Below, one piece after another: positions 1,828 to 46,271 of a stretch of 46,271 bases of DNA. Made by a program: the position numbers and the translations under genes. The notes below the pieces were generated by a model that saw only the letters and a program-made list of their open reading frames with translations, made no database searches and had not been told where the DNA came from. Positions within the stretch are counted from its first letter, which is position 1; each line of letters opens with the position of its first letter. The DNA is from a virus. The stretch spans positions 1 through 46,271 of IMG/VR virus record IMGVR_UViG_3300037042_001023, one strand, 5' to 3'.

Positions 1828-3252
1828 ATGTTATCACCAAGACTAACAAATTGCCCAGAATGTGCAAACATTCCTTCTTTACTTAAAAAAATAGATTGCA
1901 AGTTAGCAGAGCTTGGTAATAGTTTATACAACAATGTTTCATACATGTTGAATCAACCTATACCTGCTGGTGATATTCTTCAATTAATTGCATATAGAAG
2001 GATACTTACTCACAAGTATTGTAATCCTAACTATTTACATGAATACTCTGTAGCTATGATAGCTAGCAGAGTTATACGTATTACAGTGGGTTGTGTTAGT
2101 AGATGTAATACACCAGAACCTTGTTTAGAGGTTCCTTGTGATATTACTATTGTACAAAATCCTTCTACAACTACTACAAGTACATTACCACCACCACCAA
2201 CCACCACCACTACTACCACTTCTTCAGGAACAACTACCACAACTACCACTATATGTCAAGATTGTATAGCACATGATGTTACAATTGGAACTCAAGTTTG
2301 GACTGGATGTAATGCATCAAATAGTACATATAGAGATGGTACTATAATTCCTGAAGAACCAATTACAGTTGTTTGGCCATCATTAACCACAGGTGCTTGG
2401 TGTTATTATAATAATGATCCAGCAAACGAAGCAATTTACGGAAAGATTTATAATTGGTATGCAGTTGCTGGAATTTATGATGCGGCTTCATTAGCTGATC
2501 CATCATTAAGAAAACAATTTGCTCCTACAGGATATCATGTTCCTAGTGATGAAGAATGGACAACATTAGTTGACTATTTAGGAGGTAATGTTATTGCAGG
2601 TGGACATTTAAAACAACCAGGATTTTGTTATTGGCATGAACCAAATGCTGATGCAGATGATACTAGTGCATTTACAGGTCTTCCTGCAGGTTATAGAGAG
2701 GGTTATGATGGTATTTTTGGTGGATTAAGTTTTCAAACTTATTTCTGGACTGACTCAAATGCTGAGTTTGGTTTAGATGCTTGGACATATCAATTAAGAT
2801 ATACTGATGGGTTTGCAGTGAGAAATTTTCATAGTTTAACAAATGGTTTTTCTGTACGTTTAATAAAAGATACAGAACCTATAACAACTACTACCACTAC
2901 CACTGCAGCACCTACAACCAGTACAACAACAACTTGTTCACCAATTCATCCTTATAATATTAATTTAGCTCAAAATATAAATACTAGTCCACTTACTTTT
3001 ACAGAGTCTTTAATTACAGCATGTGCAGCAGTAAGTTGTTTAAATGCTGGTACATGTTCTATTACTGGAATAACAATAGGTTGGTGGGACACTCCAAATC
3101 CTACTGTAGGTTCTAAACTCTTTATACAAGCCGAAGGTTGTGTTGAATCTAGTAGTGGTGGATGGTTTGCAATTAATATTCCTGGAACACCAGGATCATG
3201 GCAAGTAGTTCATGTAGTAACTGGTGTTATTGTATCTTATCCAACTTGTTAA
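1828..3252 (+). CDS. Modular virion protein: conserved N-terminal domain, Thr linkers, FISUMP domain, Cys-rich beta module
   Basis: A 474-residue mosaic. Residues 1-90 form a mostly helical domain (IDCKLAELGNSLYNN, then YRRILTHKYCNP) resembling small conserved virion proteins of crAss-like phages, probably the part anchored in the particle. Residues 112-141 are a Thr/Pro linker. Residues ~149-348 match the FISUMP family (Fibrobacter succinogenes major paralogous domain), with WCYYNNDP, YGKIYNWYAV, GYHVPSDEEW, FTGLPAGYR and a final GFSVRLIKD; this is a C-type-lectin-like fold used for surface binding. A second Thr linker (352-370) leads to a ~100-residue Cys-rich beta module ending SYPTC. The 690-aa protein downstream has the same two C-terminal modules in opposite order. 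Likely role: virion-bound adhesin. Confidence 0.75.
   Translation: MLSPRLTNCPECANIPSLLKKIDCKLAELGNSLYNNVSYMLNQPIPAGDILQLIAYRRILTHKYCNPNYLHEYSVAMIASRVIRITVGCVSRCNTPEPCLEVPCDITIVQNPSTTTTSTLPPPPTTTTTTTSSGTTTTTTTICQDCIAHDVTIGTQVWTGCNASNSTYRDGTIIPEEPITVVWPSLTTGAWCYYNNDPANEAIYGKIYNWYAVAGIYDAASLADPSLRKQFAPTGYHVPSDEEWTTLVDYLGGNVIAGGHLKQPGFCYWHEPNADADDTSAFTGLPAGYREGYDGIFGGLSFQTYFWTDSNAEFGLDAWTYQLRYTDGFAVRNFHSLTNGFSVRLIKDTEPITTTTTTTAAPTTSTTTTCSPIHPYNINLAQNINTSPLTFTESLITACAAVSCLNAGTCSITGITIGWWDTPNPTVGSKLFIQAEGCVESSSGGWFAINIPGTPGSWQVVHVVTGVIVSYPTC
2272..2871 (+). other. FISUMP domain, copy 1
   Basis: Encodes residues ~149-348 of the 474-aa protein. It shares with copy 2 the landmarks LTTGAWCYYNND, YNWYAV, GYH(V/I)P and a glycine-rich FTGLPAG/GG stretch. 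Relative to copy 2 it has an insertion of about eleven residues between YNWYAV and GYHVP. The fold is C-type-lectin-like and related to formylglycine-generating enzyme. Confidence 0.75.
2883..2904 (+). repeat. Exact 22-nt linker repeat, copy 1
   Basis: These 22 bases of Thr codons recur exactly at 5939-5960. Both copies sit in poly-Thr linkers bordering a FISUMP domain and the Cys-rich 'WDTP' module, in genes where these modules are in opposite order. The repeat could serve as a homology tract for module exchange, though Thr-codon runs are inherently self-similar. Confidence 0.7.
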
Positions 3253-3272
3253 ATCTTTTAAAATAAAATAAT

Positions 3273-4454
3273 ATGTCAAATTGCTCAAATTGTTATAACG
3301 GATGTACAGAGATTGTCTCTGACAGATGTGTTAAATATACAGGAATAGATGTTCCTGTCCTAGGAATCCAAACTGGTGATTCTCTATCTTTTGTAGAACA
3401 AGCTCTTATTACATTCCTTACATCTACATTAGATGGTACAGGAATCAAACCTGTTATTGATCCTCTTATCATTTGTAATTTAGTTAATAAATATCTTCCT
3501 ACATGTGGAGATATTACAGCTGTTGATTTATTTAATGCTTTAATTAAATCTGCTTGTGATCTTCAAGAACAAATAGATGTTATAGTTGCAGACATAGTAT
3601 TAATCAATAATCAATTAGATGTAATTGAGGCTGATTACAATGTAAAATGTCTTCCAGTTGTAACACCTTCTATAACACCTTCTTCAGGAACACATGCTGT
3701 TCTACAAGCTACAATAGATACATTATGTGCATTTATTTTAATTGTAGAAACAAACTATGTTACAATTGAGCAACTTCCCATATTAATTCAAGCATATCTA
3801 AATAGTCTATCTACTGGATTAATTAGTAACAAGATGGTTCCATTTTCTGTACTTCCTTACTTTGGAGATCTTTCATATTTTGATACTTCAGGAGCTGGTA
3901 TAATAGGTAGTTCTTGGGAAAAAATATATTTATGTAATGGAAACAATTCAACTCCTGATTTAAGAGGTAGAGCTTTGACTGGTGCTATTAATGGTGTTCC
4001 TGGACCACCTATGAGTGCAGCTGTTGACCCAGCAATTCCTGGATCTGGTAATCCAAATTATAGTCTTTATGATACTGCTGGAGCAAATCAAATTACACTT
4101 GGACCTACACAGTTCCCTTCACATACACATACTGGATTAATAAGTACAATACCAAACCATACTCATTATACAGTAGTTGCAGCAAGCGGTACAAGTACTA
4201 ATGATAACAGTCTTTACAATGGAACATTTGCTGGAAGAAATGATTTAGGATTAACTTCTAGAGCATATAATGCAGATGGTGACCCATTTGATTATGAGTT
4301 AACAACTTCTGCTGGTACAATTGATGCTGGTATAACTAGTGAAGCTGGAGAACATACACACACCATCACTATAGGTAACACAGGTGGAGGACTTCCTCAT
4401 GCAAATATTCAACCAGTAGTAGCGTGTTACTACATTCAATATAGACCTTACTAA
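3273..4454 (+). CDS. Tail fibre / receptor-binding protein with phage tail-collar domain
   Basis: 393 residues. Residues 1-60 are a variant of the N-terminal anchor module used by the neighbouring adhesins (Cys-rich start, then KYTGIDVPVLGIQTGDSL). Residues ~80-180 are helical and could form a trimeric shaft. Residues ~189-393 match the phage tail-collar family: WEKIYLCNGNN, then TPDLRGRALTG, an iron-site-like series of His pairs (SHTHT at 283-287, NHTHY at 295-299, EHTHT at 360-364), and the ending HANIQPVVACYYIQYRPY. In long tail fibres such as T4 gp37, HxH motifs bind Fe along a trimeric needle; the same is plausible here. Unlike its neighbours it has no poly-Thr linker. Best candidate for a classical fibre tip in this cassette. 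Confidence 0.8.
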   Translation: MSNCSNCYNGCTEIVSDRCVKYTGIDVPVLGIQTGDSLSFVEQALITFLTSTLDGTGIKPVIDPLIICNLVNKYLPTCGDITAVDLFNALIKSACDLQEQIDVIVADIVLINNQLDVIEADYNVKCLPVVTPSITPSSGTHAVLQATIDTLCAFILIVETNYVTIEQLPILIQAYLNSLSTGLISNKMVPFSVLPYFGDLSYFDTSGAGIIGSSWEKIYLCNGNNSTPDLRGRALTGAINGVPGPPMSAAVDPAIPGSGNPNYSLYDTAGANQITLGPTQFPSHTHTGLISTIPNHTHYTVVAASGTSTNDNSLYNGTFAGRNDLGLTSRAYNADGDPFDYELTTSAGTIDAGITSEAGEHTHTITIGNTGGGLPHANIQPVVACYYIQYRPY

Positions 4455-4466
4455 TAAATCAATAAG

Positions 4467-6539
4467 ATGGCATATCCTTTTTTACCAGTAAATCCTTGCT
4501 GCACAGATGTAGTTATAAATGATCCTTGTGGATGTAGTTCTGTTATTACCAATAGTGGTTGTAATGGTAACAATCCATGTTCAACAAATTTAACTGCTTC
4601 TAGCACTATTGTATATAATGGTCCTTTATTAACCTGTACAACAGCTGAGCCATGTGATACACTTAATGTGATATTACAAAAAATTGATTCAATCATATGT
4701 AACTTACTTATACAGATTAATACATTAAATATACAAGTTAATAATATCACTACACAGATAATAACTATCAATGGTGATATTATTAATATAAATAATCAAT
4801 TAGATAATTGTTGTAATGCTACCACTACAAGTACCAGTACAACAATATACGTTGCTCCTTGTGAAAGTTTCTTATTAACTAACATTGGAGCTGTACCATT
4901 GGCTATAATCATTACTGATTGTATTACAGGAATGCAAGAACCAATTGTGTTATTACCAGGAGATACAAATATTTGTGTTGAAACAGATAGTCCTTTAGTT
5001 CTTCCTGGAACAGTTATAGCAACACCAACAGGACCTTGTCCTTCTACCACTACAACCACAACTACTATTTGTGAAGGACTTAGTTTATTTAATCCTTCAT
5101 TAGATCCAATAGATGTAATTATTACACCTTGTGATACTGGTATAGAAGAATTATTATCATTAGAACCTGGAACAACTTATGTTTGTTTATTAGGTGGTGC
5201 ACCATTTACAATTGATGATCCAATTATAATTACACCAGAAGGACCTTGTCCAACAACAACCACAACAACAACATTATTCATTCCTTGTGAATGTATTACA
5301 TTTACTAATACAGATGACAGTTCACATTATTTTTCATATACAAATTGTTCAAATGACCTTGTTGAATTAGTATCAATTTCTTCTGGTGAAATTGTAAGTG
5401 TTTGTGGATGTTGTGGTGGAGCCAGTGATTCATATGTAACCATATCAGTGGGAGCTAATTGTATTCAAGGAATTTGTCCTCCAACAACAAGTACCACCAC
5501 TACAGAACCACCAGTGATATGTTTATTTACAGGAATTGCTGATCAAATACCAAATCCTATAACAACCACTACAACTAGTTCTACTACATGTAATCCTTTA
5601 ACAGAGCATATTTATCAAATAAATGCAATACATAGAACTACTGCAGATTTACCTTCATATTTTCCAGATGTAACAGCAGCATGTGCAGGAGCAACTTGTT
5701 TACAAGCTACAACTTGTACTGTAGGTTCTCTAACTAATGCATATTGGGATACTCCTACACCAGGTGTAGGTGATACTGTTTATGCTTTTGCAACTGGATG
5801 TACACGTGGTGTTACAAATGATGGATTCTATGTATTAAATCTTAGTGGAACTTATACAGTTGTAGAAATAGTAAATCATATTATAGTTAGTCTTCCAACA
5901 TGTGTACCAACAACAACCACTACTACTACACTAGCTCCAACAACTACTACCACTACCACTTCTAGTGTTTGTACAATACCTATAGATACACAACTATGGG
6001 GATGTGCTAATTTAGATGTTACTGAATATGCTAATGGTGATCCAATTCCTGAAGTAACTGACCCAACAGCATGGGCAAACTTAACCACAGGTGCATGGTG
6101 TTATTATAATAATGACCCATTAAATGGAGCAATATATGGTAAGTTGTATAACTGGTATGCAGTGAATGACCCACGAGGATTAGTTCCTGCAGGTTATCAC
6201 ATTCCAACTAATACTGACTGGATTAATTTAGCTACTTTTTTAGGAGGAGATTTAGTTGCAGGAGGCCCACTAAAAGAAGCAGGAACAGTGCATTGGACAA
6301 GTCCTAATGTAGGTGCTACTAACAGTAGCGGCTTTACAGGACTTCCAGGTGGATTTCGTGATACCACTGGAGTATTTCAATTTATTAATGATGTTGCATA
6401 TTGGTGGACATCTACTGCAATTGATCCATCATCTTCATATATTTATGGTTTAGATTATAGTAATGCAGGCACTAGTGCTATAAGCGGAGCTGGAGGAGTT
6501 ATTCAAGATGGATATTCTTTACGTCTATTACAAGATTAA
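4467..6539 (+). CDS. Multi-module adhesin: anchor, coiled coil, three Cys-rich beta modules, 'WDTP' module, FISUMP
   Basis: 690 residues built from modules separated by Thr linkers. The N-terminal anchor (~45-80) has the motif IVYNGPLLTC then CDTLNVILQKID; a heptad-like helix follows to ~116. Three ~65-residue modules (130-192, 201-262, 272-339) share the pattern Cys...N...I-x-x-C-x-x-x-x-x-E...P-G-x-T-x-(I/V)-C...Cys. Then come a ~100-residue module with WDTPTPGVG and a final SLPTC (375-479), double Thr linkers (482-500) and a C-terminal FISUMP domain (502-690). The three small modules look like tandem duplications that have diverged. The design suggests a long flexible fibre presenting a lectin-like tip. 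No signal peptide is visible, as expected for a virion protein. Confidence 0.75.
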   Translation: MAYPFLPVNPCCTDVVINDPCGCSSVITNSGCNGNNPCSTNLTASSTIVYNGPLLTCTTAEPCDTLNVILQKIDSIICNLLIQINTLNIQVNNITTQIITINGDIININNQLDNCCNATTTSTSTTIYVAPCESFLLTNIGAVPLAIIITDCITGMQEPIVLLPGDTNICVETDSPLVLPGTVIATPTGPCPSTTTTTTTICEGLSLFNPSLDPIDVIITPCDTGIEELLSLEPGTTYVCLLGGAPFTIDDPIIITPEGPCPTTTTTTTLFIPCECITFTNTDDSSHYFSYTNCSNDLVELVSISSGEIVSVCGCCGGASDSYVTISVGANCIQGICPPTTSTTTTEPPVICLFTGIADQIPNPITTTTTSSTTCNPLTEHIYQINAIHRTTADLPSYFPDVTAACAGATCLQATTCTVGSLTNAYWDTPTPGVGDTVYAFATGCTRGVTNDGFYVLNLSGTYTVVEIVNHIIVSLPTCVPTTTTTTTLAPTTTTTTTSSVCTIPIDTQLWGCANLDVTEYANGDPIPEVTDPTAWANLTTGAWCYYNNDPLNGAIYGKLYNWYAVNDPRGLVPAGYHIPTNTDWINLATFLGGDLVAGGPLKEAGTVHWTSPNVGATNSSGFTGLPGGFRDTTGVFQFINDVAYWWTSTAIDPSSSYIYGLDYSNAGTSAISGAGGVIQDGYSLRLLQD
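5939..5960 (+). repeat. Exact 22-nt linker repeat, copy 2
   Basis: Identical to 2883-2904. Here the tract lies between the 'WDTP' module and the FISUMP domain; in copy 1 it lies between FISUMP and the 'WDTP' module. Confidence 0.7.
5970..6536 (+). other. FISUMP domain, copy 2
   Basis: Encodes residues ~502-690, the C-terminal end of the 690-aa protein, finishing in GYSLRLLQD. It is closer than copy 1 to the canonical family pattern (TGAWCYYNNDP, GAIYGKLYNWYAVNDPRGL, GYHIPTNTDW, NSSGFTGLPGG, WWTST). A C-terminal lectin-like tip is the usual position for a receptor-binding domain. Confidence 0.8.
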
Positions 6540-6557
6540 CATTATAAATAAATAAAA

Positions 6558-7523
6558 ATGGCTAATTGCTCTCAGATAAATAATACAACAATAACAGGAA
6601 CGAGTGCTTTCATATATGATGGCACTCCACTTCCTTGTACAGATATAAAAACTTGTGATGACTTAAATACAATTTTAGCTAAGTTAGATGCTGTTGTATG
6701 TACTACTGTAAATAGTGTAAATACACTTATAGAAGAAGTGACAAATATCACTGAAGATGTAATGATTATAACAGAAGATGTAATTAATATTAATAATCAA
6801 CTTAATATTTGTTGTCCAACAACTACCACTACAAGTAGTACATCTACTAGTACATCAACATCAACAACAACAAGTACTACCACTATACCACCAACATCAA
6901 CAACAACATCAACTAGTACAAGCACTAGTACAAGCACTACTACAAGTACATCAACTAGCACAACTAGTACATCTAGTTCAACAACAACAACAACTACAAC
7001 TGTTGCTTGTGGATGTTATGATTGGAATGTAGTAATTGGTCCAATTGATATAGCTCAATCAGCTCCTGTAACTATTAGCTATATTTCTTGTAGTGGGGAG
7101 ATTGTTGAAAGACCAAATAATGCAGCTATTGACACCACTATTTGTGCACAAGTATCAACTATTCCTGTAGTGTACAGATCTGATTTTCCACAAGCACTAG
7201 TAGATTCTTCAATAACAATCACATCTAACTGTTGTGGTACTCCTCCAACAACCACTACTACCACTACACCTGCTCCTGTAGAAAATATCAACTATAGAGT
7301 GACAGCTTGTGTTGGTGGAAATTATTACAATATGCCAAAAGCTGCTACATCATTTAGTATTGGTGAAGTATTACAATTTACAGCACCTTTTGATGGTTTT
7401 ACAATAATTCATTGTGGTACAATAACAAGTATAACATGGCCTAATAATGCAACAGATGCATATTTATACGGACCAAATGCTTGGGAATGTGGAGATATGA
7501 CACATTGTGAAATTCCAGTATAA
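6558..7523 (+). CDS. Adhesin with anchor module, long Ser/Thr stalk and two Cys-rich beta modules
   Basis: 321 residues. The N-terminal anchor (~15-48: FIYDGTPLPCTDIKTC, then LNTILAKLD) and the helix ending NININNQLN/CC parallel the start of the 690-aa neighbour closely, so the two are paralogues at their bases. Residues 87-148 are a ~62-residue Ser/Thr stalk with one IPP break. A beta module of the small Cys-rich type (150-226) follows, then a second Thr linker (231-237) and a different C-terminal module (240-321) containing ITWPNN and CGDMTHC. The start follows an A-rich leader (AATAAATAAAA). Likely a second fibre or side spike that uses the same docking site as the 690-aa protein. Confidence 0.7.
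   Translation: MANCSQINNTTITGTSAFIYDGTPLPCTDIKTCDDLNTILAKLDAVVCTTVNSVNTLIEEVTNITEDVMIITEDVININNQLNICCPTTTTTSSTSTSTSTSTTTSTTTIPPTSTTTSTSTSTSTSTTTSTSTSTTSTSSSTTTTTTTVACGCYDWNVVIGPIDIAQSAPVTISYISCSGEIVERPNNAAIDTTICAQVSTIPVVYRSDFPQALVDSSITITSNCCGTPPTTTTTTTPAPVENINYRVTACVGGNYYNMPKAATSFSIGEVLQFTAPFDGFTIIHCGTITSITWPNNATDAYLYGPNAWECGDMTHCEIPV
6816..7001 (+). repeat. Long Ser/Thr stalk, copy 1
   Basis: Encodes ~62 residues, nearly all Ser and Thr, in the 321-aa protein. Its core after the IPP break matches the stalk at 8036-8203 residue for residue over about 25 positions. The codons differ, including serines that switch between the AGY and TCN codon families, so the similarity is at the protein level. 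Confidence 0.75.
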
Positions 7524-7542
7524 CTAATAAAATTTAAAACTA

Positions 7543-7800
7543 ATGACAGTATTATTAACATTAACAGTAGCTGGGGCTGATTCAGGCCCCTTCAATCTAT
7601 ATTCAAATCTAGATGGATATGTAACAGCATTTGAATCAGGAGTACCTAAAGCATCTTTGCTTGCAGGATATTCCTCTTCACTAGTACCTGATTTTACAAC
7701 TATTGTAAGAGTATTATCTACAGGAGTATGTAATAACTATATTAATATAACATTAACATCAGGAACAACTACCACAACCACCACAACTATAATTCTTTAA
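7543..7800 (+). CDS. Single 'GPFxLYS' beta domain ending in a poly-Thr tail
   Basis: 85 residues: one ~70-residue beta domain (motifs SGPFNLYSN, LLAGYSSSLVPD, VRVLSTGVCNNYINI), then eight threonines and IIL. The domain is repeated at the N-terminus of the next gene and, more divergently, at the start of the third muzzle ORF (18782-19648). The protein ends where its neighbours would have a linker leading to another domain, so it may be a minimal or shortened fibre, or a subunit that caps or dimerises another fibre. The stop is TAA and the next ATG comes after ten bases. Function unknown; a real gene is likely because the domain is conserved in three places. Confidence 0.65.
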   Translation: MTVLLTLTVAGADSGPFNLYSNLDGYVTAFESGVPKASLLAGYSSSLVPDFTTIVRVLSTGVCNNYINITLTSGTTTTTTTTIIL

Positions 7801-7810
7801 TAAATAGATT

Positions 7811-8524
7811 ATGACAGCAACAATAACTTTAACAATACCAGTTGGTGGAATAGCAGGTCCATTTGATCTTTATTCAGATGCAACTGGATATATAATACCA
7901 TTTGGAACAGGTATATCTGCATTAACTCTAGAGGCTGGATATACAACATCATCTATTCCTGATGGAACAACTATAATTAGAGTGGTATCTACAGGAACAT
8001 GTACAAATTATATTGATATAACAATTAATTTAATTACTACTACTACAACTAGTTCTACTAGTACTAGTACATCAACAACTACTAGTACATCTACAACATT
8101 ACCACCTACAAGTACAACTACATCTACTAGCACATCTACAAGTACAAGTACAACAACTAGCACATCAACATCAACTAGTACTACAACTAGTACTACTACT
8201 ACTTTAGATGGAACTTTAGGAGTTGCAAATTATACAACCATAGTTACAATAGATGATGTATATGCATTTGGTTGGAGTACTGTTCTTACTGTACCTATTT
8301 TAGCTGGTGAAACTAATACAGGATCTCATGGTGCTACAACTAATCCTGTTAATATATCTGTTTCAAACATTACTGGTTTATTAGGTTATTGTGCAACACT
8401 TTATAAAAATGGCAGCCCAGTAGATCAATTACCTATTATTGCAGATGGAGTATATACATTTGCAGCCACTACAATTCTTATTACTGATGATATTCTAGTG
8501 ACTCTTGTTGAGGGAGCATGTTAA
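7811..8524 (+). CDS. Adhesin: 'GPFxLYS' beta domain, Ser/Thr stalk, C-terminal beta domain
   Basis: 237 residues. Residues 1-73 are a paralogue of the 85-aa neighbour (AGPFDLYSD, LEAGYTTSSIPDGTT, VVSTGTCTNYIDI). Residues 76-131 are a Ser/Thr stalk with an LPP break. Residues 132-237 form a beta-rich domain of unknown fold with motifs FGWSTVLTVPILAGETNTG and YCATLYKNGSPVDQLP. Pairing with the 85-aa gene suggests that the shorter one is the same base without stalk and head. It is the last gene before an intrinsic terminator, so it ends the fibre transcription unit. Confidence 0.65.
   Translation: MTATITLTIPVGGIAGPFDLYSDATGYIIPFGTGISALTLEAGYTTSSIPDGTTIIRVVSTGTCTNYIDITINLITTTTTSSTSTSTSTTTSTSTTLPPTSTTTSTSTSTSTSTTTSTSTSTSTTTSTTTTLDGTLGVANYTTIVTIDDVYAFGWSTVLTVPILAGETNTGSHGATTNPVNISVSNITGLLGYCATLYKNGSPVDQLPIIADGVYTFAATTILITDDILVTLVEGAC
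8036..8203 (+). repeat. Long Ser/Thr stalk, copy 2
   Basis: Encodes ~56 Ser/Thr residues in the 237-aa protein. The post-PP core matches that of 6816-7001 residue for residue but with shuffled synonymous codons. Confidence 0.75.
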
Positions 8525-8565
8525 TAATAATAAAAAAATCATAGTTTGTTGGTTTTCTGTGGTTT

Positions 8566-8599
8566 CTCCTCAAGACTTTTCTTGAGGAGTTTTTGTTTT
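8566..8599 (+). terminator. Intrinsic terminator of the fibre cassette
   Basis: A perfect 9-bp stem (CTCCTCAAG at 8566-8574 pairing with CTTGAGGAG at 8581-8589), a six-base loop and an immediate U-tract TTTTTGTTTT (8590-8599). This is a textbook Rho-independent terminator and the strongest in the window. It separates the adhesin cassette from the genes starting at 8705. Confidence 0.92.
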
Positions 8600-8619
8600 A
8601 TAACTATTTTAGTTATAAA
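8597..8619. repeat. AT-rich inverted repeat between terminator and promoter
   Basis: Ten bases at 8597-8606 pair perfectly with 8610-8619 around a three-base loop (core TATAACTA / TAGTTATA). It overlaps the end of the terminator U-tract and lies ~25 bp upstream of the predicted -33 box. It could be a protein-binding site or simply extend the terminator structure. Confidence 0.5.
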
Positions 8620-8643
8620 TAATAACTAATTTGATTAAAATTA

Positions 8644-8676
8644 TTTGGAATATATAAAAACTATTGTTTATCTTTA
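8644..8676 (+). promoter_or_regulatory. Putative Bacteroidetes-type promoter for the phosphoesterase/neck genes
   Basis: TTTG at 8644-8647 is followed after 21 bp by TATCTTTA (8669-8676), one base off the TAnnTTTG -7 consensus of Bacteroidetes housekeeping sigma factors. It sits in the only gap behind a strong terminator, where a new promoter is needed for the genes downstream. It could equally be recognised by another polymerase. Confidence 0.45.
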
Positions 8677-8704
8677 CGATATTTTTTAACTAATATAAAT
8701 ACAT

Positions 8705-9922
8705 ATGTCTGAAAATCAAAGCTTGTTATGTCAATTAGAAGAGTTATTAACGCAGAAGAAGAGTAAAAAATTCTATGCAGAGAGATTAGGAATAAGTGAA
8801 TATGAAGTGAATGAGCTTCTCAAAGAGCTCAGAGAAAAAGATGATGATCCTGTTAATTTAGGAAGAAACTATACAGAAGAACGAAAGGTGAATGTTGAAA
8901 AAGGTACAATAGAAAGTACCATAGTTACAGACTTTGATCCTAAAGATGATATTGAACTAGCTAAGCTACACAAGATAAACTTAGATAAATACATCATTAC
9001 CAACTACTGGTCTAAGATGTTACCTAATGGGAAGTTTACTTCCTCTATCTTTTCAAAAAGAAAAGAACCTAAAGACTACTCCCCTGAAGACTTTGCTAAG
9101 TTTTTACAAAACTACAAACCAAACAATATATCAATTACTAAATCACAAGCTGATTCTAAAGATCATGTAGATGTAGAAATATCTATATCTGATTTTCATT
9201 TAGCTAAAAGATGTGTAGATGGTGATAATGATCCTGGTGACAGAGCTTTAAGATATTTTAATGTGGCTCAATCTTTGATTACAAAGGTGAGAGCTAATTA
9301 CAATATAAACACTGTAGTGTTACCTATATCAAATGATTTCTTTCATACTGATAACTATCAAAACCAAACTACACAAGGAACACCACAAGATACTATAATG
9401 GATTATAGTTCTGAATATGAATTAGGATTTGCAGTTCTTGTAGATACAATCAATATGTTAAGGCAGAATGCTAATGATGTTAGTGTTGTTCTTGTACAGG
9501 GTAATCATGATAGAACTAAGTCTTTCTACTTAGCTCATGCATTAGATGTTTATTTTAGAGATTCAGTAGATGTAGAGTTTATAAGAGAACATAGTGTAAT
9601 AAAAGCAAAGGTGTTAGGAAATACATTTATTGGATGGCATCATGGAAATTGTAAATTAGATGATCTTCCTTTATTATTTGCAACACATCCTGACTATAGT
9701 CATTTCTTTGGTAATGCTAAATACAGAGAAATACATACAGGAGATAAACATCACTACATGGCTAAAGAAGTCAAAGGTGTAAGAATACAACAAATGCCTA
9801 GCTTATCTGGAACAGATAGATGGCACTTAGATAATAATTACGTACATTCTGTGCGTGCAGCTCTTGCTCTAGTTTATGATCTTAAGCTAGGTAAGATTTG
9901 CGAATTTGAAACAAGAATATAA
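8705..9922 (+). CDS. Calcineurin-like metallophosphoesterase with N-terminal helix-turn-helix
   Basis: 405 residues. Residues ~18-45 (KKFYAERLGISEYEVNELL) look like a helix-turn-helix. The C-terminal two thirds hold the metallophosphoesterase signature in order: SDFHL (D163, H165), ISNDFFH (N210, D211), GNHD (266-269), WHHG (H312-H313) and GDKHH (346-350). All metal ligands expected for an active two-metal phosphatase or nuclease are present. The family includes Mre11/SbcD nucleases, cyclic-nucleotide phosphodiesterases and protein phosphatases, so the substrate is not determined. It opens a transcription unit (terminator and promoter upstream) that continues into neck genes, so it is expressed late with the structural proteins. 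The DNA-binding-like N-terminus favours a nucleic-acid substrate. Confidence 0.85.
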   Translation: MSENQSLLCQLEELLTQKKSKKFYAERLGISEYEVNELLKELREKDDDPVNLGRNYTEERKVNVEKGTIESTIVTDFDPKDDIELAKLHKINLDKYIITNYWSKMLPNGKFTSSIFSKRKEPKDYSPEDFAKFLQNYKPNNISITKSQADSKDHVDVEISISDFHLAKRCVDGDNDPGDRALRYFNVAQSLITKVRANYNINTVVLPISNDFFHTDNYQNQTTQGTPQDTIMDYSSEYELGFAVLVDTINMLRQNANDVSVVLVQGNHDRTKSFYLAHALDVYFRDSVDVEFIREHSVIKAKVLGNTFIGWHHGNCKLDDLPLLFATHPDYSHFFGNAKYREIHTGDKHHYMAKEVKGVRIQQMPSLSGTDRWHLDNNYVHSVRAALALVYDLKLGKICEFETRI

Positions 9923-9924
9923 TT

Positions 9925-10497
9925 ATGGCAAGTAATCAAATAACATTAGAAAGAAGTATAGAGATAAATTCTCTAGACTATTTATATCAATGTACTAAAT
10001 GTAATGAAGTAAAACCAAATAGTGAATATTCTATCAGCTTAAATAAAAGAGTAGAAAATAGTCTAGGAAGAGCTTTTGTATCTCAATGTAAATCCTGTAG
10101 AGCAAATTATAATTCTTCTAGAAAAGTTTTAGATAGAAAAAAAGAATTAGCTCCAATACAAAGAAATAAACATAGATTAAATGTAATTTTTTGGTCATCT
10201 AAACAAAATGCTAAAAAAAGAAATTTAGAACATAGCATAGACTTAGAATACATTAAAGAGTTATTTGAAATACAAAAAGGATTATGTTACTACACTGATA
10301 AAGAAATGTTTATTGATACAAGAGAAAAAGAAAATAATGAAGATTCTGTATCTTTAGATAGATTTGATTCTTCTAAAGGCTATATAAAAGGAAATATTGT
10401 ACTATGTAGATGGATAGTTAACAGAATGAAAAATGATATTAATTTCAAAGATTTTTTACAAATTATTTCTGAAATAAATAAAAAACATAATATATAA
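9925..10497 (+). CDS. Free-standing HNH-type endonuclease (probable homing endonuclease)
   Basis: 190 residues. An N-terminal zinc ribbon (C23-x2-C26 and C55-x2-C58) is followed by a basic helical linker and an HNH-type nuclease core (C121; VSLDRFDSSKGYIKGNIVLC at ~142-161; N166 and K169). In this subgroup an Asp in the SLDR motif takes the place of the first His. It begins three bases after the phosphoesterase stop and its TAA overlaps the next ATG (TAATG), so it is inserted with almost no extra sequence. The second HNH protein (20784-21428) has the same layout and ends. Such genes usually spread by cutting alleles that lack them; a structural role is unlikely. Confidence 0.8.
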   Translation: MASNQITLERSIEINSLDYLYQCTKCNEVKPNSEYSISLNKRVENSLGRAFVSQCKSCRANYNSSRKVLDRKKELAPIQRNKHRLNVIFWSSKQNAKKRNLEHSIDLEYIKELFEIQKGLCYYTDKEMFIDTREKENNEDSVSLDRFDSSKGYIKGNIVLCRWIVNRMKNDINFKDFLQIISEINKKHNI

Positions 10498-17247: not shown

Positions 17248-18780
17248 ATGGCTGAAGACAATAAAATACCAGTAGTAATAAGAACACAAGTTTATTTATC
17301 AGATCCTGACTATTTCTGTAATAAATCTTGGACCATGTCGTACAATATGAATACTGGAAGTTGGATTTCTTTTCACACTTACATACCTAATTTCTATATA
17401 GGAGAAAACAATTTCTTTTATTCAGGACTTAATGGATGTTGTGATGATGCTGATGCTGGTGGTTTTCAAGTTATTGCTGGAGTATTAGATCCTAAAGTAC
17501 CAACTACTAGTACTACAACAACCTATCCTCGTATTACAACAACCTCCACTACTACAATAATAGATTGTACATTAATGGGAAGAGGTGTTATAACTGATTG
17601 TGATTTAGATGGAACTGGAATAATTACTGTGCCTACAGTACCCACTACTACTATATGTCAAAGACCTTCTAACTTAACAGTGTTTATATTAATACAAGGA
17701 TATACATTAGGAACAGATCCAGAAGTAATATTTACAAATAGTTCCCAAGATGCATGTGATGCAATCCCTGCTATTAATTATGTTAATAGTATAGGTAATA
17801 CAGATGGTAGTACAATAGATAAATTTAATTCATATGTTAATAATATATCAGATGAACTAGCACTTGGTAATATAGTTTATTATGGTGATAGTAATGATTG
17901 TACATTTGTTCCTGATGGATGGTATGTTTGTCAAACTCCACTTCCATTATCCTATGTTTATAATATTATAGGAGGTGTAGTTGTAGATATAGTAGCTTGT
18001 GATTGTGCAACCACAACTACAACAACTACTAGTATACCAAATATAACAGAATGCTGTGGAATTTTATTATCATCTACTGATGCTATTAGCTATTTAAATA
18101 AAACAACTGATGTTGTTAGTCCATTAAATGTACCAGGTTATGTAACATCTTTAGGTATAGCTATGACAGTTGATAAACTTTGGTCTATTGATACTGATAT
18201 AAAAGAATGGGATATTATTCTAGCACCATTTTCTGCTACATTTAATAGAACAATTTCTTTTCCTGGAGGATTTACTACATCATCTGGAATAGTTGCTTTA
18301 AACAACACTACATTGATTGGTATAAATGATACACCATCTCAACAAGAGGTTACAGAATTAGACATCACTACATTAAGTGCATCTGCTACTATTAAATTTA
18401 CATTACAAACAGATAGAGTTGCTTATGGTAATCCACTATATATACAGACAGGTCAAATACTTATAATTAATAAAGACACAGTATCTTCTGATTATTATAT
18501 ATCACAATACAATTATTCTACAGGAGCACTTGAACTTGAGATTAACATTGGAAGTGTACAAGCTATATCAATATTTGAATGTAATTGTGATATTTATGTT
18601 ACTGATGTAGATGGACGTTTATATGTAATTATTAAAATTGCACCTTATGTATTATTGTATTTAGGAGTAGAATATACTATTAATGTAACATCTATAAGTT
18701 CTGCAACTCAAGTTGGAACTTGTGTAACTAGTCCTATTGATCAAAATACCACAACAACAACCACTACAACTATTCCTTAA
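17248..18780 (+). CDS. Second muzzle ORF: conserved tail segment fused through Thr linkers to adhesin-like modules
   Basis: 510 residues. Residues 1-82 (DPDYFCNKSWTMSYNM, GSWISFHTYIPNFYIG, NNFFYSG) look like the continuation of the gp10-like fold that the preceding ORF lacks. Thr linkers at ~86-104, ~131-136 and 255-261 separate added modules: a small hydrophobic one, a ~115-residue Cys-rich one (C137-C252) and a beta-propeller-like domain (~268-495: LWSIDTDIKEWDI, NNTTLIGIN, ILIINKD, GRLYVIIKI). It ends with eight Thr and IP. The decorated parts probably project from the muzzle. This split arrangement might be a phage-specific way to attach receptor-binding modules to the tail tip. Its stop is one base before the ATG of the third ORF. 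Confidence 0.65.
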   Translation: MAEDNKIPVVIRTQVYLSDPDYFCNKSWTMSYNMNTGSWISFHTYIPNFYIGENNFFYSGLNGCCDDADAGGFQVIAGVLDPKVPTTSTTTTYPRITTTSTTTIIDCTLMGRGVITDCDLDGTGIITVPTVPTTTICQRPSNLTVFILIQGYTLGTDPEVIFTNSSQDACDAIPAINYVNSIGNTDGSTIDKFNSYVNNISDELALGNIVYYGDSNDCTFVPDGWYVCQTPLPLSYVYNIIGGVVVDIVACDCATTTTTTTSIPNITECCGILLSSTDAISYLNKTTDVVSPLNVPGYVTSLGIAMTVDKLWSIDTDIKEWDIILAPFSATFNRTISFPGGFTTSSGIVALNNTTLIGINDTPSQQEVTELDITTLSASATIKFTLQTDRVAYGNPLYIQTGQILIINKDTVSSDYYISQYNYSTGALELEINIGSVQAISIFECNCDIYVTDVDGRLYVIIKIAPYVLLYLGVEYTINVTSISSATQVGTCVTSPIDQNTTTTTTTTIP

Positions 18781-19648: not shown

Positions 19649-20778
19649 TGAGTGGTAAAGTAAAATGCACATGTGGATGGAGCTGGAACAAATCTGATTC
19701 TAGTAAGAAAGATATGTACATATGTCATGAATGTGGTAGAGATAATTCTAACAACATGAAGAATGGTGGTTGGTTAGATAGTTATGAAGATGGTGGAACA
19801 ATGCAAGAACACCAAGAGAATTATAATAATTCAGAAACATCTGTTCCTGAAGGATATGAAGGAGAAGGATATTCTATGAAAGGAAGAAACTATTCTCCTG
19901 CGTGGGGTGGACAATTTCAAATGGGTGGATTTGTCTATCCAGTTAACTATGTTCCTCAAGCACAAGAAGGAAAAGAATTAACTTTTCTACAACCAACTAG
20001 TGAGAAGTTACCAGAAGGATATGTTATTCCTTATAATACTCCTAGTAGTGAAAGAGCTATGTCTATAGGTGGAGAGAATGGAGAACCAGCTTATTTGATT
20101 CCTAGTTTTAAATATGGTAAACCATTAGATGATCCAATGGAAGAATTTAGAAAAACTGGTGAACATTTAGGTGGTCCATTTAAAACATGGCAAGAAGCTG
20201 ATAAGTGGGAGAATGAAACTAGACATCCAGCAGTTGAGAAAGGAGAAAACATAATGTTCCCTCAAGAACAATTTGCAATGGGTGGTTCTATTCCAGGAGC
20301 TGTAGGTTTCTCATATGCACGTACACAAGGAGCTGCTCCTAGTAATGGTCCTTATGCAAAGAAAACAATGGCTAGTGCACAGAATGGTAAAGAGATGCAA
20401 TACTATCAGAATGGATTAGATTTCAAACCTAAGAGTATTAGTAAGAATGGATCTTGGTTATCTAAATATGATGATGAAGAAGTTATTAAAGATGATAGAG
20501 GACAATGGGATCATCCAGGAAAGATAACAGAAATAGGTTCTAATGAAATAACAATGCAAGGAGTTCCTTATGATGTCCTTGGTATATCAGATACAGGAGA
20601 TACAAAACTAATGAAGCCAGGAAAGAATTATAAGTTTAAGGGTAAGAAGGTTACTGAATATCCTATGGCTCAGAATGGATTAAGACAAGAACAAAAAGGT
20701 TTGCAGAACTTAGATCAATTGACTAACTTTACAAATTATAATAAACCAACTATCGGTGGATGGTTAGATAATTATTGA
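19648..20778 (+). CDS. Cargo-region protein with N-terminal zinc ribbon and repeated 'NGGWLxxY' motif
   Basis: 376 residues. Residues 7-29 form a zinc ribbon (KCTCGWSW, then CHEC). The motif NGGWLDSY appears at 39-46, NGSWLSKY at 267-274 and GGWLDNY at the very C-terminus (370-376). The sequence in between is rich in Gly, Asn and Gln and of low complexity, typical of proteins packed in the capsid. A conserved-looking segment lies at ~286-340 (RGQWDHPGKITEIG, GVPYDVLGISDTGDTKL). Such short Trp motifs may be binding sites for the larger cargo proteins. It precedes the cargo block, and the 1063-aa protein follows after the inserted HNH gene. The stop is TGA, the only non-TAA stop among the complete genes. 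Confidence 0.55.
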   Translation: MSGKVKCTCGWSWNKSDSSKKDMYICHECGRDNSNNMKNGGWLDSYEDGGTMQEHQENYNNSETSVPEGYEGEGYSMKGRNYSPAWGGQFQMGGFVYPVNYVPQAQEGKELTFLQPTSEKLPEGYVIPYNTPSSERAMSIGGENGEPAYLIPSFKYGKPLDDPMEEFRKTGEHLGGPFKTWQEADKWENETRHPAVEKGENIMFPQEQFAMGGSIPGAVGFSYARTQGAAPSNGPYAKKTMASAQNGKEMQYYQNGLDFKPKSISKNGSWLSKYDDEEVIKDDRGQWDHPGKITEIGSNEITMQGVPYDVLGISDTGDTKLMKPGKNYKFKGKKVTEYPMAQNGLRQEQKGLQNLDQLTNFTNYNKPTIGGWLDNY

Positions 20779-20783
20779 GAATC

Positions 20784-21428
20784 ATGATAGAATTTAAAGT
20801 TTGTAAATTGTGTAAAAAAGAATTATCTATTAATAATTTTTGGAAGAATCCAAGTAATAAGGATGGTTATTTTGGAAAGTGTAAAGTTTGTGCAACTAAA
20901 ACAAAAGATATAAATGCTTTAAAGAAACAAAAATATTTAGAAGATAATCTTTGGACTTGCTCTACTTGTAACATTACACTACCATTAACTAAAGAAAATT
21001 TTCATAAAAGAAATGATTCTGATACAGGATTTCAACATAGATGTAAAAAGTGTTTAGAAAAAGATCCAACTAGAGTTAATAGATTAATTAAAAAAGATGA
21101 TTTAGATCTTTTTATTAAAGATAGATTTCATGGAGCAAGGAGTAGATCAATTAAAAAAGGTATAGAGTTTGAATTAACTCTAGAATATTTAAAAGATTTA
21201 TGGAACATTCAAAATGGTTTATGTGCAATAACCAAAATTAAAATGACACATACTATACTAGAAGGTAAATTAAAAACTAATTTAAGTATAGATAAAGTAA
21301 ACCCAGCATTAGGGTATACAAAAGATAATATTCAACTAGTATGTAACATTGTTAATGTTATGAAAAGTGATATGTCAATAGAAGATTTAATGTATTTTTG
21401 TAAACTAATAATTCAAGAAAATGACTAA
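20784..21428 (+). CDS. Free-standing HNH-type endonuclease with two zinc ribbons
   Basis: 214 residues from the ATG at 20784; a TTG nine bases earlier overlaps the previous stop and is less likely. Two zinc ribbons come first (C7-x2-C10 with C33-x2-C36; C59-x2-C62 with C87-x2-C90). A basic linker (KDRFHGARSRSIKKGI) precedes the nuclease core, which has C147, SIDKVNPALGYTKDNIQLVC at ~168-187, N191 and K194. The core matches that of the first HNH gene (9925-10497), with the same GY-x2-(D/G)NI-x-L-(V)C signature. It ends within the next gene (8-bp overlap, ATGACTAA). It is an independent insertion into the cargo block and, like the other, probably a homing endonuclease. Confidence 0.8.
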   Translation: MIEFKVCKLCKKELSINNFWKNPSNKDGYFGKCKVCATKTKDINALKKQKYLEDNLWTCSTCNITLPLTKENFHKRNDSDTGFQHRCKKCLEKDPTRVNRLIKKDDLDLFIKDRFHGARSRSIKKGIEFELTLEYLKDLWNIQNGLCAITKIKMTHTILEGKLKTNLSIDKVNPALGYTKDNIQLVCNIVNVMKSDMSIEDLMYFCKLIIQEND

Positions 21429-45226: not shown

Positions 45227-45616
45227 ATGAGAACAGCTGCAATTTGCCCAACATGTGCCACATATGAAAATGCTCTATGCATTATATATAATGGCCCTTA
45301 TTTAACTAATATCGATGTTGCTCCTTTAGAGGACTTACAATCTGTATTAGCTAAGATAAATACTAACTTAGTACCAAAAACTGGTACTACTGCTCCTACT
45401 AGCTCTGCTACATATCTAGGACAAACTTATTTAAATACAACTAAGTCTTTATTATATTTTGCTAAGTCTATAGGTACTGGAGCAACAGATTGGAATCTTG
45501 TATTAACAACTCCTATAATAACTCCTCAGTATGCTAATAATGCTGCTGCTTTGTTTGCTGGCTTAATTGCTGGTCAGATCTACCGTACAGGAGATCTTCT
45601 TAAAATCGTTCACTAA
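45227..45616 (+). CDS. Small anchor-module virion protein
   Basis: 129 residues. Residues 1-50 are the anchor motif shared by the adhesins (CIIYNGPYLTNI, then LQSVLAKIN). Residues ~63-97 look like a small beta domain (TYLGQTYLNTTKSLLYFAK, ATDWNLV). The C-terminus (AGLIAGQIYRTGDLLKIVH) is a short motif that, from memory, recurs at the ends of phage and bacterial surface proteins. It is the first gene after the polymerase block and the promoter. It may be a fibre-base protein or a fibre without a receptor domain. Confidence 0.6.
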   Translation: MRTAAICPTCATYENALCIIYNGPYLTNIDVAPLEDLQSVLAKINTNLVPKTGTTAPTSSATYLGQTYLNTTKSLLYFAKSIGTGATDWNLVLTTPIITPQYANNAAALFAGLIAGQIYRTGDLLKIVH

Positions 45617-45631
45617 TAATACAACCTCCCA

Positions 45632-46271
45632 ATGAGTGTAATCTGTGCAGCTAATCCTTGCCCAATCATACTAAGTTCATCCTGTGTATTTTACGAAGGA
45701 CCTAACTTGGTGTGTACTGGTATATATACTAATGAAACCCTTGAATCTGTAATACAAAAAATTAATGCTGCACTATGTTCTGGTGCTGGTGCTGATGGAA
45801 CTAGTGGTACTTCTGGTACCAGTGGAACGTCAGGTACCACAGGAACTAGTGGAACATCAGCCACTTCAGGCACTTCTGGTACCACAGGTACTAGTGGAAG
45901 TGCTGGAACATCAGGTTCTTCTGCTACAAGTGGAACAACAGGTAGTAGTGGTAGTTCAGGGAGTAGTGGTTCATCAGGAAGCTCAGGAAGTTCTGCCACA
46001 AGTGGAACCTCTGGAAGTACAGGTACCTCAGGTACATCAGCTACAAGCGGAACAGCTGGTACTGCTGGAAGTTCTGGTACCACTGGATCTTCTGGTAGCT
46101 CAGGAACAACTGGCACCTCAGGATCTTCAGGTACTACTGGGACCAGTGGAACATCTGGTACAGGTGGAACAAGTGGTACATCAGGATTACAGGGTGATCT
46201 TTATAGAACAGTCTCTACAGATTGTTTTACATTAGGTAACTCAGGAACACTTACTGTTGACACAGGATTGG
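45632..46271 (+). CDS. Collagen-like fibre with anchor module (partial, runs off the right edge)
   Basis: The ATG at 45632 opens a frame that stays open to the window end (213 residues visible). Residues 1-50 are the anchor module (CVFYEGPNLVCTGI, then LESVIQKINAALC). Residues 56-184 are 43 successive Gly-x-y triplets, nearly all GTS, GSS or GTT, so a collagen-like triple helix; four triplets carry Ala for Gly (ATS). A new domain starts at GLQGDLYRTVSTDCFTLG, which is the usual transition from a collagen-like shaft to a head domain. ORFs in other frames over the repeat (such as 45765-46235 on + and 45691-46116 on -) are shadows. Likely a trimeric fibre. Confidence 0.85.
   Translation, partial: MSVICAANPCPIILSSSCVFYEGPNLVCTGIYTNETLESVIQKINAALCSGAGADGTSGTSGTSGTSGTTGTSGTSATSGTSGTTGTSGSAGTSGSSATSGTTGSSGSSGSSGSSGSSGSSATSGTSGSTGTSGTSATSGTAGTAGSSGTTGSSGSSGTTGTSGSSGTTGTSGTSGTGGTSGTSGLQGDLYRTVSTDCFTLGNSGTLTVDTGL
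45797..46183 (+). repeat. Collagen-like Gly-x-y coding repeat
   Basis: Nine-base periodic repeat coding 43 triplets with mixed synonymous codons (GGT, GGA, GGC, GGG; ACT, ACA, ACC, ACG; AGT, TCA, TCT and others). Ala replaces Gly at triplets 8, 15, 23 and 28. Codon diversity argues against recent slippage. Confidence 0.9.

Follow-up and report, generated by a model that had tools for sequence, protein, structure and literature searches.

The IMG/VR record IMGVR_UViG_3300037042_001023 is a virus contig of 46,271 bases, and the whole record is referred to here as the window. It contains two neighbouring putative fibre genes, encoding proteins of 474 and 690 amino acids (aa), in which the same two modules, FISUMP and WDTP, are found in opposite order. 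These genes are the conserved slots A and B of a Caudoviricetes phage group distantly related to Cellulophaga phage phi17:2. A first-pass annotation had taken the opposite orders as direct evidence of module shuffling within one phage. Here, the locus is compared with about 145 related loci, which were obtained by IMG/VR scans, are labelled L### and are all metagenome contigs. The features of the two genes and of the gene between them are as follows.

1828-3252, plus strand: slot A gene, 474 aa, with the order stalk, FISUMP, WDTP (open reading frame (ORF), Pfam, orthologues in about 47 related genes)
1828-2163, plus strand: conserved N-terminal stalk of slot A, aa 1-112, with about 77-97% aa identity in closer relatives
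2164-2250, plus strand: slot A linker 1
2272-2871, plus strand: slot A FISUMP module (PF09603), without a counterpart in the L015 and L109 orthologues
2884-2934, plus strand: slot A linker 2, poly-threonine (poly-Thr), with a 22-nucleotide (nt) tract at 2883-2904
2935-3249, plus strand: slot A-type WDTP module, aa 370-474, with 72% identity to the slot A copy in L015 and 59% to that in L109
3273-4454, plus strand: tail-fibre-like 393-aa protein encoded between slots A and B (phrog_8763, E-value 2.2e-18)
4467-6539, plus strand: slot B gene, 690 aa, with the order stalk, three small modules, WDTP, FISUMP (ORF, Pfam)
4467-4820, plus strand: conserved N-terminal stalk of slot B, aa 1-118, with about 70-89% aa identity in closer relatives
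4845-5483, plus strand: three small modules of about 60-70 aa each (clusters 8, 8 and 7), with Thr linkers between them
5589-5903, plus strand: slot B-type WDTP module, aa 375-479, which groups with slot B WDTPs of other phages
5910-5966, plus strand: terminal linker of slot B, poly-Thr, with the 22-nt tract at 5939-5960
5970-6536, plus strand: slot B FISUMP module (PF09603), with C-type-lectin-like structural matches

The opposite orders were confirmed by ORFs, Pfam and alignments. FISUMP corresponds to PF09603 (Fib_succ_major), which is matched with E 1.9e-32 in the 474-aa protein (aa 151-347) and with E 5.7e-36 in the 690-aa protein (aa 506-653), scoring 113.5 and 125 bits against a curated cut-off of 33.9, and exactly two copies are present in the window. 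As had been described, both junctions are poly-Thr linkers and the 22-nt tract AACAACTACTACCACTACCACT is exact at both.

For the comparison, modules were defined by splitting proteins at Thr or serine (Ser) runs and clustering the pieces. The stalks are shared across related contigs, and the sequence after the stalk differs almost every time, with 24 distinct architectures among 47 slot A genes, 32 among 41 slot B genes, and chains of up to seven modules in neighbouring fibre genes. Among slot A pairs with stalk DNA at least 95% identical, the architecture differs in 17 of 25. The first-pass annotation had suggested looking for different module orders in relatives, and other pairs do occur in both orders (clusters 10 and 12 are in opposite orders in slot B of L015 and L090), but FISUMP and WDTP within one gene were found in the window only, among the loci tabulated.

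Alignments of near-identical phages show recent linker-bounded gain, loss or replacement of modules. L015 and L109 share 98% identity over 10 kb, as well as an identical linker and next-gene start, and 80 of their 193 differences fall inside the 318-nt WDTP module. L019 and L026 are distinguished by whether WDTP is there at the end of slot B; the stretch from the slot A linker to the end of the gene is FISUMP in L017 and module 14 in L091; and L086 and L105 differ by an internal module swap. Modules also move from one slot to another and from phage to phage, since module 12 of L090 slot B and of L098 slot A is far closer (93% nt identity over 363 base pairs, ending in linkers on both sides, and 90% aa identity) than the two stalks (79%). 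Homologous modules in otherwise non-homologous proteins, by which phage fibre domain mosaicism is recognized, were found at thresholds of at least 70% or 90%, and module 14 reached 82% nt identity in this test.

The slot A FISUMP of the window itself is a gain or loss bounded by linkers, because homology to L015, which has a slot A WDTP and no FISUMP, stops at 2237 and restarts at 2896, inside linker 2. Homology to L089 and L090 (96% nt identity, with a stalk 96% identical in L090) is lost at 2184, inside linker 1. On a tree of the neighbouring 187-aa gene plus the stalk, the presence of FISUMP in slot A requires at least 6-7 changes; the window's nearest relatives carry module 14 in its place, and the WDTP-bearing L015 and L109 form a different clade. 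Slot A cassettes have a conserved 3' border, the 5' end of the 393-aa gene, whose start is kept after module replacements. A short leader, ICQDCIA, stands ahead of the slot A FISUMP in the window and L086 (ICQDCIQ in L020), and also ahead of the unrelated module 14 in L012 (slot A 7182-8843, aa 338-350), which suggests that joints may also lie just inside a module start.

Across related phages, homology breaks fall chiefly in Thr linkers, where the first-pass annotation had proposed to test for recombination breakpoints. Mean nt identity at the first linker of slot A drops from 0.84 in the last 15 bases before it to 0.42 just after (272 pairs). Slot A and B genes contain 216 distinct alignment ends, of which 163 are in linkers, compared with 34 expected. 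When each segment with a homology break is counted once per gene, 78 linkers, 28 gene 3' ends and 6 module interiors are obtained; linkers make up 20% of the length in this count.

The two FISUMP copies of the window are 41% identical over 201 columns and its two WDTP modules 35% over 108 columns, and the copies are not more alike inside the phage than they are to their counterparts in other phages. Slot A WDTPs from the window, L015 and L109 form one clade (support 97/99) apart from the slot B WDTPs, and the window's slot A FISUMP clusters with the slot A copies of L020 and L086 (100/97), while the slot B FISUMP stands elsewhere in the tree. In slots A-C, module pairs within one and the same phage never share more than 60% aa identity; outside these slots, one short 36-aa stretch reaches 75%. 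Modules of different phages are up to 100% identical when they occupy the same slot and up to 90% when their slots differ. The two module orders of the window were most likely assembled separately, because the WDTPs sort by slot, the FISUMPs differ in lineage and close within-phage pairs are lacking in slots A-C. On the same grounds, the idea of direct evidence for shuffling within one phage is not supported; linker-bounded exchange is strongly supported across the phage group and not within one phage. Between slots A and B, the WDTPs do show inheritance without exchange, the outcome that the first-pass annotation had set against its own proposal; FISUMP does not, and neither does the whole gene. 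Modules within a phage are never close copies in slots A-C (L003-L138), yet identical modules are shared between phages, and an avoidance or purging of duplicate modules within a phage is possible.

The 22-nt tract lies in the same codon phase at both junctions, spans seven Thr codons plus one base and is the sole repeated 22-mer of the window. For this one linker pair it was matched in 0 of 2000 synonymous redraws, whereas, once every linker pair of the window is counted, 22 nt is attained in 21 of 300 redraws (7%); with linkers trimmed to the Thr/Ser run, the observed match is 21 nt and is reached in 67 of 300 (22%). The tract was not found in 227 other related loci and occurs in two other IMG/VR stretches. 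With a chance of 7-22% over linker pairs, its absence from the 227 loci and no excess of sharing between linkers, it was rejected as a recombination signal; the tract is not a conserved joint and is weak evidence of recombination.

The modules themselves are probably surface-binding. The model of the slot B FISUMP (predicted template modelling score (pTM) 0.79, weak at residues 97-124) aligned in a second look with the C-terminal domain of Legionella Lcl (Z 8.0, 95 residues, 2.3 Å), with Bd2740 (Z 7.1) and with many C-type lectins (Z 5-6), while Foldseek alone gave no match at E <0.001. FISUMP is probably a C-type-lectin-like receptor-binding domain; the model lends support to the fold, and receptor binding is the presumed function. 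The C-terminal third is the most variable part of its alignment. Bacterial genomes hold a large pool of FISUMPs, mostly in Bacteroidota and Ignavibacteria, which was left out of the FISUMP tree. The WDTP model (AlphaFold2, slot B copy) is confident, with a predicted local distance difference test (pLDDT) score of 94, and is without a good match among solved structures (PDB); no Pfam family is known for it, and Pfam and PDB profile searches gave nothing usable. Against BFVD, only weak matches were obtained (E 0.06 or worse), the top query TM score being 0.71 for a protein of Virus NIOZ-UU157. A single window WDTP as query against viral contigs gave no matches, a relative's WDTP did work, and a mixed WDTP alignment was too diverse for scanning. 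The HP-type WDTP was found only in slots A and B, and a distant subtype is present both in slot B and in further proteins rich in linkers, among them a 510-aa protein of the window. From their neighbours, which include the tail-fibre-like 393-aa protein, the virion structural 187-aa protein and structural genes in the region shared with phi17:2, slots A and B would encode tail or head fibres on the virion.

The favoured explanation, to which a probability of about 0.85 is assigned, is that both orders were built independently by linker-bounded cassette exchange between co-infecting phages. The fixed N-terminal stalk should dock to the virion, and the part after it would be a string of small, independently folding binding modules on flexible Thr/Ser linkers. 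Co-infecting phages would swap, gain or lose these modules; the pattern between genomes is observed, and co-infection is its presumed setting. Joints would lie in linkers or, for the last module, at the gene 3' end beside the conserved start of the next gene. In slot A, FISUMP would have been gained ahead of a slot A-type WDTP, or lost in relatives; in slot B, a FISUMP of another lineage would have been gained behind a slot B-type WDTP. Module exchange probably alters host-surface recognition, because FISUMP is probably a receptor-binding domain.

Several points weigh against this explanation. The evidence comes wholly from metagenomic contigs, and virion location and receptor binding are matters that we infer. 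The break counts are uncorrected for shared ancestry, and their p-values are not to be taken at face value. A change in linker length by slippage can also end an alignment without any exchange, and because alignment ends may reflect such changes, it is the architecture comparison and the single events that carry the argument. In 34 related loci, the exact DNA that linkers of one genome have in common is slightly shorter than synonymous codon choice would give (13.3 nt, compared with 13.6 nt when redrawn), and selection for joints that spare folds would give the same picture as pairing through linker DNA. Such pairing is not demonstrated, since there is no excess of shared exact DNA between linkers.

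Other histories can account for parts of the data. Shuffling inside one genome, in which FISUMP or WDTP was copied between the two genes through the shared tract, would agree with the tract, an exact in-phase match between the two junctions that is unlikely when this pair is taken by itself. However, the copies are merely 35% and 41% identical, the WDTPs sort by slot, close within-phage pairs are missing from slots A-C, the tract is missing from relatives, linkers share no excess DNA, and the side of the modules on which the tract lies is not the same in both genes, which leaves this history improbable. It is still less probable that a FISUMP and WDTP gene was duplicated long ago, then reordered and diverged: both families do meet in both genes of one phage, and the slot B and C stalks are related, but BLAST does not link the slot A stalk to the slot B stalk, the pair is confined to the window among the loci tabulated, and relatives carry either module alone. 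Chimeric read assembly at low-complexity linkers has to be considered where every locus is a metagenome contig, but the window holds no repeat of at least 23 nt, and identical module strings recur across several metagenomes, as in the L003-L007/L010 group, so this is very improbable. A diversity-generating retroelement (DGR) acting on FISUMP or WDTP is the hardest to credit. DGRs are known to target FISUMP (PMC4159848), which varies most in its C-terminal third, yet the differences between L015 and L109 include indels and all base types, and the idea was rejected after no reverse transcriptase (PF00078) was matched in 20 phage records including the window, which may not be complete and were not scanned for repeats.

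The rivals on mechanism accept cassette exchange between phages and concern the role of the linkers. Linker DNA pairs with an identity of 0.56 in codon phase and 0.17 out of phase, so ACN-rich linkers could guide in-frame joining, good pairing being available only where the frame is kept. In addition, flexible protein linkers tolerate new neighbours, and a joint that accepts any neighbour would be a second reason for linkers to serve as joints. On the former reason, Thr-codon linkers would be frame-locked recombination joints through which any two modules, from any gene or co-infecting phage, are joined in frame without a dedicated recombinase; this is tentative and rather unlikely. On the latter, the linkers would be passive, with breaks arising anywhere and only those in linkers surviving selection. 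The lack of excess exact sharing between linkers and their acceptance of new neighbours favour passive linkers, the in-phase pairing speaks against them, and the chances of this version are put at slightly under even.

Linker-rich and fibre-type genes are also found elsewhere in the window, and the following features belong to them.

6558-7523, plus strand: slot C gene, 321 aa, with Thr linkers and other modules and an N-terminus about 40% identical to the slot B stalk
17656-18009, plus strand: distant WDTP-family module of CTRP type, the third in the window, carried by the 510-aa linker-rich protein
3273-3450, 4560-4700, 6590-6720, 45227-45370 and 45625-45790: sites of a shared N-terminal motif

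Downstream of a 1514-aa structural protein, the 510-aa protein (17248-18780) is likewise built as a chain with Thr linkers, and Thr runs are present at or near the C-termini of the 348-aa, 1514-aa and 510-aa proteins. The shared motif, Y-x-G-(P)-x-L ... L-x-x-(V/I)-L-x-K-I, starts five fibre-type genes and is perhaps a common virion-docking signal. The gene at 45625-46271, which is cut by the window end, continues after this motif with a stalk of collagen-like (GTS/GSS) repeats. Among the structural genes, two small proteins (9925-10497 and 20775-21428) carry CxxC pairs and, at their C-termini, HNH-like motifs; they resemble free-standing homing endonucleases.

The 1514-aa protein has a homologue with 28% identity over 80% of its length in Cellulophaga phage phi17:2 (Lightbulbvirus), which also has a run of structural proteins in the same region as the window; phi17:2 differs in having no FISUMP match and is a distant relative only. 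Because distant homologues of this protein are found in phi17:2, phi4:1, Leptolyngbya phage Lbo-JY46 and csAssE-Sib, the window phage is probably a relative of Bacteroidota podoviruses, and the hosts of the group would be uncultured aquatic Bacteroidota. Phages labelled as cyanobacterial, L140 (PP438436) and PP395634 (Lbo-JY46, Mel-JY01), match this Bacteroidota-type phage in the structural protein or in FISUMP, and the host labels of Lbo-JY46 and Mel-JY01 may deserve a check.

The modularity of receptor-binding proteins is usually described as an N-terminal anchor with one swapped C-terminal domain. Here, several neighbouring genes carry module chains, and near-identical genomes catch single exchanges. 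Domain mosaicism has been described for phage receptor-binding proteins, where one module can occur in unrelated proteins, tail fibres and spikes are the main sites of recent shuffling, and near-identical genomes differ by domain exchange (Smug et al. 2023, PMC10684548). The present phages resemble that description in having modules common to unrelated proteins and near-identical genomes with an exchanged domain, and differ from it in their low-complexity Thr-linker joints, in neighbouring fibre genes that draw on one module pool and in a module turnover that outruns stalk divergence; the terms "linker", "breakpoint" and "crAss" are not in the main text of that study. In Streptococcus thermophilus antireceptors, as cited in PMC5601072, collagen-like repeats stand between variable host-range domains; by that description, rather than by sequence, low-complexity repeats likewise set variable domains apart, with Gly-X-Y repeats instead of Thr codons. 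The T-even gp38 adhesins also have hypervariable host-recognition segments between conserved, glycine-rich low-complexity motifs (PMC12529663), but gp38 is one adhesin with variable segments and not a chain of whole domains. Nothing relevant on Thr linkers in phages was found in the literature. Fibre-domain mosaicism is thus already known, and what is new is the multi-gene, multi-module chains, the sequence-marked joints and the very fast turnover in an environmental phage group.

These loci form a natural data set on whether low-complexity linker DNA promotes or merely tolerates in-frame recombination, and on the speed at which phages of presumably aquatic Bacteroidota remake their host-recognition surface. 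If the joints were indeed frame-locked, the phage group would have a shared, gene-independent library of host-binding modules. On the favoured explanation, with or without such joints, the opposite orders in the window are one snapshot of a fast mix-and-match system between related viruses, and not a shuffle inside one virus.

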